Assembly (NCBI GenBank): GCA_017616445.1
Contig: JAFZYE010000029.1
Location: 1 to 37,958 of the forward strand
Origin: Bacteroidaceae bacterium
Lineage (GTDB): Bacteria > Bacteroidota > Bacteroidia > Bacteroidales > Bacteroidaceae
DNA length: 37,958 nucleotides
Direction: 5' to 3'
The position numbers were made by a program, and so were the translations under genes. Every line of letters starts with the position of its first letter. Position 1 is the first letter of the stretch. The notes below the pieces were generated by a model that worked only from the letters and a program-made list of their open reading frames with translations, made no database searches and had not been told where the DNA came from. Positions 5,060 to 20,028 of the stretch are shown here, piece after piece.

Positions 5060-5150
5060 CAACAAAGACATTTTTACGTCTTCCTTCAGCCATCAGACTT
5101 CTTACATCATCAGTTAGATGTCACTCTCCTGTCCCCTGTGGCAAACGAAA

Positions 5151-5246
5151 GCCTCAACGAGGCGACATATCTCAGGATAGGGTGTGAACCCTATCTATAT
5201 GAGCACACCCTACCCCACAGCCCTGAATGGGCGACAGAGTATTATA
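5151..5246 (+). repeat. Solo REP-hairpin-REP element
   Basis: It has three parts. REP palindrome one is GCCTC-aac-GAGGC at 5151-5163, followed by GACATAT. A hairpin GATAGGGT-gtga-ACCCTATC lies at 5176-5195. REP palindrome two is GCCC-tgaat-GGGC at 5220-5232, followed by GACAGAGTATTATA. The offsets between parts (25 and 44 nt) match the elements on both sides of the transposase at 18836 within one base. It looks like a non-autonomous copy. Confidence 0.75.
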
Positions 5247-5248
5247 GA

Positions 5249-5278
5249 AAACGGACAAGGAGCAATCCCTGTCCGTTT
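5249..5278. terminator. Bidirectional terminator-like hairpin
   Basis: A 9-bp stem AAACGGACA/TGTCCGTTT is extended inside by GG/CC around the loop AGCAAT. Flanking T-rich sequence occurs on both strands. It could end the GH9 operon on the plus strand or a short minus-strand transcript from the -7 box at 5457-5464. Confidence 0.55.
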
Positions 5279-18297: not shown

Positions 18298-18732
18298 ATG
18301 ACAATAGAAGAAATACAGCAAGAGATTATTGAAGAGTTCAGCGGTTTTGATGACTGGATGGACAAGTATCAGCTACTGATCGATATAGGTGGCGAGCAGG
18401 AAACGTTACCAGAACAATACAAGACAGAGAAAAACCTTATTGACGGTTGCCAGAGCCGTGTGTGGTTGCAAGCCGACTATATTGATGGTAAGATTCACTT
18501 CCAAGCAGAGAGTGATGCCCTCATCGTCAAAGGCATCGTCACCTTATTAATTCGCGTATTGTCCGACCATACGCCTGACGAAATTCTCGAAGCCGATCTT
18601 CATTTCATCAATGATATCGGTCTCACCGAACACCTATCGCCCACCCGCTCTAATGGCCTTCTCGCCATGTTGAAGCAGATGAAATTGTATGCAATGGCAT
18701 TCAAAGCAAGTAGCCCCAAAGGAACGGAATAA
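18298..18732 (+). CDS. sufE: SufE-family cysteine desulfurase sulfur acceptor
   Basis: A 144-residue cytosolic protein. SufE takes persulfide sulfur from the desulfurase SufS for iron-sulfur cluster assembly. The acceptor residue is Cys51 in DGCQSRVW, followed by the usual beta strands (KIHFQAESDALIVKGIV) and C-terminal helices. The start is 28 nt after the glutaminyl-cyclase stop. The last residues (SSPKGTE) are encoded by a degenerate REP unit of the neighbouring mobile element, which also supplies the stop, so the native C-terminus was probably replaced or extended. No suf operon surrounds it. Confidence 0.9.
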   Translation: MTIEEIQQEIIEEFSGFDDWMDKYQLLIDIGGEQETLPEQYKTEKNLIDGCQSRVWLQADYIDGKIHFQAESDALIVKGIVTLLIRVLSDHTPDEILEADLHFINDIGLTEHLSPTRSNGLLAMLKQMKLYAMAFKASSPKGTE

Positions 18733-18834
18733 TATGAAGCGCCAAAGGTGCGAAATAATAAAGGATAGGGTGTTAACCCTATCATGAAATACAACCTCCA
18801 ACTACAGCCCCAAAGGGGCGACATATTATTATAT
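18712..18834 (+). repeat. REP-hairpin-REP element on the left of the transposase
   Basis: A degenerate REP overlaps the sufE end (about 18712-18736). Then comes GCGCC-aaa-GGTGC (18739-18751), the hairpin GATAGGGT-gtta-ACCCTATC (18764-18783), and the perfect palindrome GCCCC-aaa-GGGGC (18807-18819) followed by GACATATTATTATAT, which directly abuts the transposase ATG. Confidence 0.85.
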
Positions 18835-18835
18835 C

Positions 18836-19288
18836 ATGCCCCAATCTTTATCCAAATTATACATTCATCTTGTGTTTTCTACAAAAGGCAGAACGGACAC
18901 CTTGCCTAAAGCCCACCTAATGGAGGTTCATGCATATATGGCTCAAATACTTAATAGCAATAATTGCAAAGCCATATCTGTTGGTGGTACCTCTAACCAT
19001 GTGCATTTGCTTTTTATCTTATCACGCACCAATTCATTGGCTGATATTGTCCGACTCATAAAAAGTAATTCTGCAAAATGGATAAACGAACACAATGGGC
19101 TATTGAATCAGTTTTGTTGGCAAGATGGATATGGAGCTTTCAGTGTAAGCCAGTCGCAAGTACAAAAGGTTGTGGATTACATCAAGAACCAAGAAACGCA
19201 TCATTATAAAAAGTCCTTTATGGAAGAGTATAAGCAATTATTAGATGCGCATGGAATTGGTTATGATGAGAAATATATGTGGGATTAG
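18836..19288 (+). CDS. Y1/HUH transposase, IS200-like or REP-associated (RAYT type)
   Basis: A 150-residue single-domain transposase. The HUH metal motif is His55-Val-His57 (NHVHLLF) and the catalytic tyrosine is probably Tyr115 (VVDYIKNQ), so it would cut single-stranded DNA at hairpins through a 5'-phosphotyrosine link. There is no accessory TnpB gene. It is flanked by two copies, in inverted orientation, of the REP-hairpin-REP element, which fits a REP-associated transposase better than classical IS200 with its non-inverted ends. The frame is intact. Codon and base use is more AT-rich than the adjoining housekeeping genes, consistent with acquisition. Confidence 0.88.
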   Translation: MPQSLSKLYIHLVFSTKGRTDTLPKAHLMEVHAYMAQILNSNNCKAISVGGTSNHVHLLFILSRTNSLADIVRLIKSNSAKWINEHNGLLNQFCWQDGYGAFSVSQSQVQKVVDYIKNQETHHYKKSFMEEYKQLLDAHGIGYDEKYMWD

Positions 19289-19290
19289 GT

Positions 19291-19385
19291 TTAATATTAT
19301 GTCGCCCCTTTGGGGCTATAGAGAGAAGAGCGCCTTTAACAGATAGGGCTTTGCCCTATCCTAATCTATATCGCCCCTTTGGGGC
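19291..19385 (-). repeat. REP-hairpin-REP element on the right of the transposase
   Basis: Mirror image of the left element: GCCCC-ttt-GGGGC (19304-19316) preceded by TAATATTATGTC, hairpin GATAGGGC-ttt-GCCCTATC (19342-19360), and GCCCC-ttt-GGGGC (19373-19385). Read backwards the offsets between parts are 25 and 44 nt, like the other two copies. Confidence 0.85.
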
Positions 19386-19423
19386 TTCTATGAATCCATT
19401 TCAATAAAAAAAACGGAATCATT

Positions 19424-19449
19424 TGTAACAAATCTCTAATAAACCTCGT
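19424..19449 (+). promoter_or_regulatory. Candidate ECF-sigma promoter of the DUF4252 operon
   Basis: TGTAAC at 19424-19429 is separated by 17 nt from CGT at 19447-19449, the AAC...CGT pattern used by many ECF sigma factors. No TAnnTTTG box lies here. The third gene of the operon encodes an ECF sigma, so autoregulation is suggested. Confidence 0.5.
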
Positions 19450-19456
19450 TTGTACA

Positions 19457-19474
19457 ATTAGAAGGACTTCTAAT
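19457..19474. promoter_or_regulatory. Palindrome at the predicted transcription start
   Basis: ATTAGAAG-ga-CTTCTAAT, two perfect 8-bp arms with a 2-nt centre, about 33 nt before ATG 19507. The tight centre fits a dimeric protein-binding site better than an RNA hairpin. Confidence 0.45.
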
Positions 19475-19506
19475 CAAACGGATTATTAACAAACAAAATC
19501 AAAAGA

Positions 19507-20028
19507 ATGATGTATAACAAAGTATTTAATGGAGTGAAGGGTGTAATGATTGTAGCTATGCTGTTTATGTTATCAGCAACAGCATTTGCACAAAAGGCAC
19601 AACTGGAGAAATTGTCAGAGATAAAAGGCGTGCAGTATCAGCATTTTGACAAGAATGCCATGCAACAAGCGATGGACAATGATTTTGATCTCGAATTAGG
19701 AGACTTTTCGCTTATTCCTGAGGGTAAGAAAGGTGATATCCTGAAAAAATTAGATGAGATATATGTGCTGACAACAGAAGAAAAGAGTGCGGGCAAGAAA
19801 TTGAGTAAAGGTGCTCGTAAGATCCTCAAAGGTAAAGAGTTTACTTCTATGCTGAATTTAGGTGGTGATGAAGGTGGGCGTGTGCAAATCTGTACAGCAG
19901 AAGAAAACGGCAAGAAAGTCTTAGCCATACTTGTAAACAGCGATGATGATGAAACGGTATTTATTATCCTGAAAGGCACTATCGATATGAGCAAGTTGAG
20001 TGAAGGAATGATTTCAAATGTTATGTAA
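19507..20028 (+). CDS. DUF4252 exported protein 1
   Basis: A 173-residue protein with a signal peptide cut after AFA, then Gln. The mature part matches the DUF4252 family by pattern (KLSEIKGVQYQHFDK near the start; VLAILVNSDDDETVFIILKG before the end), a Bacteroidota periplasmic family of unknown function. It is the first gene of the ECF operon, and a second DUF4252 gene closes it. ATG 19507 is followed directly by another ATG at 19510; either could be used. The REP element ends 121 nt upstream. Confidence 0.75.
   Translation: MMYNKVFNGVKGVMIVAMLFMLSATAFAQKAQLEKLSEIKGVQYQHFDKNAMQQAMDNDFDLELGDFSLIPEGKKGDILKKLDEIYVLTTEEKSAGKKLSKGARKILKGKEFTSMLNLGGDEGGRVQICTAEENGKKVLAILVNSDDDETVFIILKGTIDMSKLSEGMISNVM

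Follow-up and report, generated by a model that had tools for sequence, protein, structure and literature searches.

Introduction

In IS608, the two end hairpins have one polarity. Enzymes of the IS200/IS605 group (TnpAY1 subclass 1.1) choose their single-strand cleavage sites via guide sequences 5' to each end palindrome, as set out in the searchable text of PMC8266576. For subclass 1.2, whose signature is Y---Q--HH, the corresponding text of Quentin et al. 2018 (PMC6006769) gives 'no' in the REP column and describes the proteins as present in few copies, as confined mostly to Cyanobacteria and Bacteroidetes, and as generally lacking typical IS200 end structures. In REPtrons, which carry GTAG REPs, REPINs and BIMEs, a Y1 gene for a class-2 TnpAREP/RAYT enzyme lies between inverted, dispersed palindromic repeats that track the gene. 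RAYTs are defined by inverted flanking REPs in the searchable text of PMC2817692, and are reported there only in gammaproteobacteria. Both GTAG and CGTC REPs are described in the open text of Di Nocera et al. 2013 (PMC3733652), where the CGTC-tagged REPs are short palindromes with a 5' tag, 8-9-bp stems and 4-5-nt loops, have Bacteroidetes among their hosts and are given no transposase. The Rfam family RF01687 (Acido-Lenti-1) is treated by Rfam and in the searchable text of Weinberg 2010 (PMC2864571) as an RNA of Acidobacteria and Lentisphaerae; that text lists the motif with a 'y' under RNA and names no transposase. Within the text open to search, PMC10059132 lists multiple Acido-Lenti-1 copies in a Vibrio, and in PMC13298647 copies that follow two Tannerella proteases downstream are interpreted as possible regulators.

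Here, we compare these systems with a Bacteroidaceae locus in which a Y1 gene, like that of a REPtron, stands between inverted copies of a dispersed repeat. This kind of REPtron-like locus is not described in the searchable open-licence literature, where we found no report that connects such an element with subclass 1.2 or with RF01687.

A Y1 transposase gene stands between inverted tripartite elements

The window, by which we mean the whole stretch of 37,958 nucleotides that was analysed, is one entire contig (C65) of a 2.38-Mb, 81-contig assembly (G000) that is 70% complete. Its transposase gene sits between two inverted copies of an element, both directed at the gene. Each element consists of REP1 (a 5-bp palindrome), ~12 nt, an 8-bp hairpin, ~23-29 nt and REP2, which has the same polarity as REP1. 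The features are given below, with scores from R1, a covariance model built from nine elements of the window's family (alignment A5, 3-nt loops).

18298..18732, sufE open reading frame
18713..18725, + strand, decayed extra REP palindrome GCCCCAAAGGAAC in the final sufE codons
18737..18825, + strand, left tripartite element (REP1-hairpin-REP2), directed at the gene; R1 58.2 bits, outside the training set
18739..18751, + strand, REP1 of the left element, GCGCC AAA GGTGC, with one G-T pair
18764..18783, + strand, central 8-bp hairpin of the left element, GATAGGGT-GTTA-ACCCTATC
18807..18819, + strand, REP2 of the left element; start codon 16 nt downstream
18836..19288, + strand, Y1 HUH transposase gene, 150 aa, with NHVH and YIKNQETHH motifs
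19298..19387, - strand, right tripartite element, inverted and directed at the gene; R1 79.8 bits, a member of the R1 training set
19304..19316, - strand, REP2 of the right element
19342..19360, - strand, central hairpin of the right element
19373..19385, - strand, REP1 of the right element
5149..5238, + strand, solitary tripartite element elsewhere in the window; R1 52.7 bits, outside the training set

The original prediction had described a palindrome, an 8-bp GATAGGG hairpin and a second palindrome on each side of the gene in opposite orientations. These are present at 18739-18819 and 19304-19385, the proposed internal offsets of 25 and about 44 nt hold in both flanks, and the separate hairpin between the palindromes is in each case the central 8-bp one. 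It had also stated that the two palindromes of each element are direct, unlike inverted REPs, and they do have the same polarity within the unit. As perfect 5-bp palindromes are symmetrical, this shared polarity rests on the tag that follows both, which is GA(C/A/T)A-like and common to REP1 and REP2. Folding z-scores of the two gene flanks range from -2.1 to -3.2.

The transposase carries an IS200-type signature

The transposase open reading frame scored 93 bits against Pfam Y1_Tnp and 68.3 bits against NCBIfam transpos_IS200, above the cut-off of 55 for IS200-type proteins; NCBIfam REP_Tyr_transpos gave 27 bits, under its cut-off of 80. The enzyme has the Y---Q--HH signature of subclass 1.2, and resembles that subclass also in its WQ motif, its ~150 aa, its low copy number in the window's family and its Bacteroidetes host. 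Its HUH motif is NHVH as against the published DH[IV]H of subclass 1.2; since both N and D occur at the first position of this motif among 27 homologues (alignment A1), we treat NHVH as within-family variation. H55, H57, W95, Y115, Q119, H122 and H123 are invariant in these 27 rows. Where class-2 TnpAREP/RAYT proteins have the NP-type Y motif (Y...NP), the window enzyme has YIKNQETHH instead. A profile of 48 relatives (A3) matched eight Protein Data Bank sequences (E<=0.01). Each is named transposase; they include ISHp608 and 2xm3, which we take to be ISDra2, and no TnpAREP entry was seen among the eight. By its subclass 1.2 signature the enzyme is IS200-like, as opposed to a classical class-2 RAYT; our claim is to that signature, read from the protein sequence, and not to proven membership of the subclass.

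The whole assembly, 70% complete, gave one Y1_Tnp match, the 18836-19288 gene, and no multicopy, near-identical gene-bearing element of the IS200/IS605 kind was found in it. The locus resembles IS200/IS605 in its IS200-type Y1 HUH enzyme, in feet 5' to each palindrome that would correspond to guide sequences, and in a pair of hairpins with one polarity; it differs in that two complete three-hairpin units, inverted relative to each other, enclose the gene. Among 301 genomes of the window's family, a homologue was detected in 40 with the single protein as query (E<=1e-10) and in 46 with profile A1 (E<=1e-5). Over all the genomes surveyed, inside and outside this family, the gene is not always single-copy, with up to 12 matches in one genome. 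The sufE neighbour is found beside the gene in genome G021 as well as in the window.

Dispersed copies in the source genome

A search of the assembly with the pattern GGATAGGG-N(2-8)-CCCTATC returned 12 occurrences, and the reversed control pattern none. Both palindromes stand at similar offsets in 10 of the 12 copies, with ~12 nt between REP1 and the hairpin and 23-29 nt between the hairpin and REP2; the remaining two are one with a decayed REP2 (L032) and one on contig C57 truncated by the contig end. The element stems of the assembly vary by paired changes (GCCCC/GGGGC, ACCCC/GGGGT, GCCTC/GAGGC, GCACC/GGTGC). R1 gave 13 matches in this genome among 14 candidates scored. The original prediction had proposed a genome-wide count and had named a lack of further copies as grounds for rejection; 12-13 dispersed copies were found.

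As with class-2 RAYT genes, the gene thus lies between inverted repeats that are found elsewhere in the genome. The REPs of REPINs form inverted pairs, and such a pair is the dispersed unit there; here REP1 and REP2 are direct and parted by a third, unrelated hairpin. Inverted pairs of whole tripartite units do occur. At the 5149 copy, comparison of the window with G021 gave no aligned synteny.

Elements accompany the gene in the window's family

Many orthologues have flanks with the same layout and other stems, for example GCCCTGAAAGGGC / CCCAGGGCATCGCCCTGGG / GCCCTGAAAGGGC in G017. We fetched 30 family loci, six of which (L036, L040, L045, L047, L048 and L060) had supplied the R1 training rows; these A5 rows were mostly picked for perfect pairing, which makes A5 pair counts circular. 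An R1 match (E<=0.01) lies within 500 nt of the gene in 24 of the 30 loci, and none within that distance in L053, L054, L056, L057, L058 and L065. The nearest element points inward on 43 sides (23 left, 20 right) and outward on one left and one right side, and 20 loci have inward elements on both sides.

Across the 301 family genomes, R1 matches occur in 32 of the 46 gene-bearing and 37 of the 255 gene-free genomes (both 32, gene only 14, R1 only 37, neither 218; p=1e-13), and RF01687 gave both 20, gene only 26, RF01687 only 29 and neither 226 (p=1.2e-6); the Fisher tests, here and below, ignore the relatedness of the genomes, so that their p-values are too small. The genomes counted include incomplete MAGs, and the gene threshold is E<=1e-5 in this family and 1e-15 in the phylum of locus L154 below. 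Per-genome RF01687 and R1 counts are "at least" values in both family surveys, in that phylum and in the set of 48 genomes described below. The proposal that element copies follow the transposase, compared here between species, holds in that presence tracks the gene, but elements persist in genomes where no gene was detected: this is the case for 37 of the 69 element-bearing family genomes, and 14 of the 46 gene-bearing ones have no R1 match. Four family genomes (G064, G244, G274 and G285) have at least 14 elements and no detected transposase gene. Since G064 is 99% complete, elements can persist after the gene is lost or depend on a different enzyme.

The association extends to other phyla

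Cross-phylum loci were collected with a DNA pattern for YIxNQxEHH, using G/C-ending codons, in genome contigs. This gave 76 loci, whose titles include Verrucomicrobia, Planctomycetes, Kiritimatiellae, Acidobacteria, Bacteroidota and others; as the loci were chosen by this motif, its invariance in A3 is no evidence. Under a strict definition, 25 of the 64 loci with enough flank have an inward element within 350 nt on one side or both, nine of them on both; the flanks contain outward matches too, 11 on the left and 8 on the right. An element of any orientation was present in one of 617 windows more than 1.5 kb away in the same loci, and none of 384 flanks shuffled in two-base steps carries a strict element. 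R1 gave 138 matches at E<=0.01 over the 76 loci, with at least one within 500 nt of the gene in 49 and none within that distance in 27. The nearest match points inward in 62 cases (36 left, 26 right) and outward in 11 (5 left, 6 right); 30 left and 29 right sides have no match. Among 56 fully covered loci, 16 have inward elements on both sides. The density of R1 matches in these loci is 1.11 per kb close to the gene, as against 0.056 per kb elsewhere. Two Cytophagales plasmid records carry the gene; inward elements flank it in Persicobacter sp. JZB09, and an R1 search of the Bernardetia sp. plasmid record returned no element. The original prediction of a distinct Bacteroidota REP-transposase system is supported by the dispersed copies, by presence that tracks the gene and by the direct REPs within an element, but the system is not confined to Bacteroidota.

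A set of 49 loci with one strict element each, 14 of them from the window's family, was used to describe the element. REP1-hairpin spacing is 11-14 nt (limits set at 11-14) and hairpin-REP2 spacing 17-28 nt (limits set at 17-30). Most loops read GAA, AAA, GGA or AAC, and REP1 comes with 25 different stems. REP2 is followed by the weak consensus G-A-C-A-(G/C)-A, at 38-67% per position. The GT[AG]G foot of class-2 REPs does not appear as a consensus, and no GTAG consensus precedes REP1 in the 49 loci. On the complementary strand, REP1 and REP2 have similar, TGTC-like 5' feet. Many REP2 copies are preceded by TGTC on that strand, and TGTC is a CGTC variant listed in the searchable text of PMC3733652; in contrast to the CGTC REPs described there, the palindromes here have 5-bp stems, mostly 3-nt loops and an associated transposase gene. 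In 150 aligned R1 matches (A6), 98.7% of positions that should pair do so and both-side changes occur at all 18 pairs, counts that lean towards the model as R1 selected the rows. The A6 covariation score is 0.549; shuffles give 0.147, and slid partners no more than 0.092.

Rfam RF01687 covers the hairpin and REP1

The RF01687 model consists of an 8-bp stem, a 12-nt linker and a 5-bp stem with a 3-nt loop, the same parts as the central hairpin and REP1. Judged by this predicted structure, RF01687 corresponds to the hairpin plus REP1 of the tripartite DNA element; REP2 lies outside the Rfam model. In the window, the right element matches at 19342-19386 on the + strand with 37.7 bits, passing the gathering threshold of 37, and the left element at 18738-18783 on the - strand with 34.9 bits, under it. 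One further copy (L025) exceeds the gathering score. The RF01687 consensus used as an exact pattern over genome contigs gave no matches.

Both Acidobacteria-titled loci have RF01687 above threshold beside the gene. L154 has matches of 48.5 bits just upstream and 34.4 bits downstream, pointing inward. L136 has four matches of 38.4-39.4 bits, of which the nearest two point outward and the farther two inward. In L123 (Thermoanaerobaculum, which we take to be Acidobacteriota), sub-threshold matches of 30.8 bits lie on both sides and point outward. The polarity of near-gene copies is therefore not universal, as L136 and L123 show.

RF01687 matches occur in 18 of 20 gene-bearing genomes, with up to 109 copies, these 20 having been picked mostly because elements had already been seen there. 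Of 48 further genomes, which account for 50 of the remaining 56 loci, 35 match RF01687 and 25 pass its cut-off, giving matches in 53 of the 68 genomes behind 70 of the 76 loci. None of 14 named control genomes passes the cut-off; Haloferax volcanii matches below it. Among 199 genomes of L154's phylum, 46 carry the gene, 38 of them with RF01687 and 8 without it; of the 153 gene-free genomes, 12 have RF01687 and 141 do not (p=1.7e-22, with the same limit on the Fisher test).

Arrangement of copies within genomes

Among the 150 R1 matches listed for the window's family, neighbours no more than 150 nt apart are arranged -> <- 16 times, with gaps of 12-51 nt, <- -> never and in the same direction seven times; five of these seven overlap with a shared REP. 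Equal gaps in G120/G148 and G089/G176 suggest that ancestral sites in common are included in the count of dimers. In G563, nine of the 12 listed close RF01687 pairs face each other with REP1 and three the other way.

G117 has 18 copies in 16 stretches, most spanning REP1 to just past REP2. They share a near-identical core with two main spacer types and lie in different flanks. A contig end truncates one copy, REP2 is altered in another, and in the copy upstream of the gene a REP1-type palindrome replaces REP2. Several flanks have other simple repeats in common, and at least two copies have the same left flank. GTAG stands at the edge of the G117 copies and is not general. Between the upstream element and the transposase gene of this genome (L187, 397-456) are four tandem 12-nt repeats, AAACCACGTATA. 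The element of G301 is embedded in a longer repeat, which suggests that the mobile unit there may be larger. This longer repeat (L226-L243) has a CTAGTTTC...GAAACTAG hairpin at one edge.

In G443 and G485, whose longer aligned blocks are 91-96% identical, clusters occur at homologous places and array sizes differ; neither a clean empty site nor a transposition event was found between the two. A 9-kb segment of G443 bounded by elements (L212, C1 232,874-241,948) is missing in the compared stretch of G485, an outcome that recombination between elements could leave.

Discussion

We consider this to be, quite probably, a REPtron-like locus whose class-1 (IS200-like) TnpA works on miniature ssDNA elements that have their two ends in direct orientation. 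The proposed substrate is the ~80-115-bp tripartite element, in which REP1 and REP2 are equivalent, have similar feet and bracket the central hairpin. The IS200-like affinity of the enzyme and the same polarity of REP1 and REP2 favour a two-end, one-strand reaction on the tripartite unit. On the model of IS200/IS605 TnpA with its left and right hairpins, TnpA would treat REP1 and REP2 as the ends of a minimal element, recognising both on the same single strand, such as the lagging-strand template. It would cleave beside them with Tyr115 and re-join or copy the element elsewhere, and the central hairpin may bring the element ends together. Near-identical dispersed copies suggest that the element is mobile. 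Acido-Lenti-1 is best read as the DNA of such an element rather than as an sRNA. Subclass 1.2 has been published without a REP; here a candidate repeat is assigned to proteins bearing its signature, in further phyla too. For a transposase subclass described as having no substrate, the locus offers one. It also offers a way to explain an orphan Rfam 'sRNA' family, namely as DNA of a mobile type, and gives an intermediate between REP systems and insertion sequences of the IS200 type that can be put to the test. Should this reading be right, automatic Acido-Lenti-1 ncRNA calls need another label.

A wider reading, which is possible and which we hold with some doubt, is that the elements form a phylum-spanning class of ssDNA mini-transposons between IS200/IS605 and REPtrons, with direct ends and a new architectural central hairpin. 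The head-to-head dimers of the window's family would then be gene-less derivatives of the -> gene <- arrangement, and Acido-Lenti-1 one half. REP1 and REP2 would be the left and right ends of an ssDNA transposon that ranks among the smallest complete ones. The part of this reading that concerns dimers is weakened by the REP1-facing pairs of G563 and by L136 and L123, where the nearest copies point outward.

The enzyme might instead have been domesticated for a host task, such as replication-fork or chromosome processing or gene regulation, with the spread of elements ancient or a rare by-product. The one gene in the assembly, the sufE neighbourhood in G021 and the homologous element places in G443 and G485 would fit such a role. 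We think it unlikely: in G117 and G301 near-identical copies stand at different places, and gene-bearing genomes range from 0-3 to 109 copies, both of which look like amplification. It is very unlikely that the Y1 gene inserted into an unrelated transposon whose terminal repeats are the elements: genomes with elements and no detected gene, and the longer repeat of G301, are compatible with this, but many phyla show the association, with stems that differ and an orientation that is mostly inward. It is highly improbable that Acido-Lenti-1, together with the flanking hairpins, is a structured non-coding RNA that adjoins a transposase gene by accident. Rfam curates the family as an sRNA, the searchable text of Weinberg 2010 marks it as RNA, and the paired changes would fit an RNA too; against this, the elements bracket the gene as mirror images on opposite strands, occur as head-to-head pairs and track the transposase gene.

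Ordinary intrinsic terminators unrelated to the transposase, which the original prediction had named as its other possible undoing, are scarcely credible as the identity of the flanks and were rejected as the main explanation: there are two terminator-like sites, in the left flank on the - strand (two in 18600-19600 against 0.8 in shuffles), but the right flank has none. Three hairpins with a fixed spacing, copies dispersed through the genome and an association with a gene are not what terminators show, and the cross-phylum association contradicts this reading.

Smaller observations were made beside the elements. A second dispersed hairpin, ACGGACAAGG...CC(C/T)TGTCCGT-like, adjoins the REP2 side of several elements, at 5251-5276 in the window and on contigs C44, C54 and C77 of G000 (L025, L029 and L005); it is possibly a terminator or another repeat family. 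In the window, the final sufE codons at 18709-18732 (...SSPKGTE*) are built from the decayed REP palindrome, and, read by eye, sufE ends differently in G021 (L037), where the palindrome is intact and the end longer. It seems that the remnant of an element was turned into sufE coding sequence.
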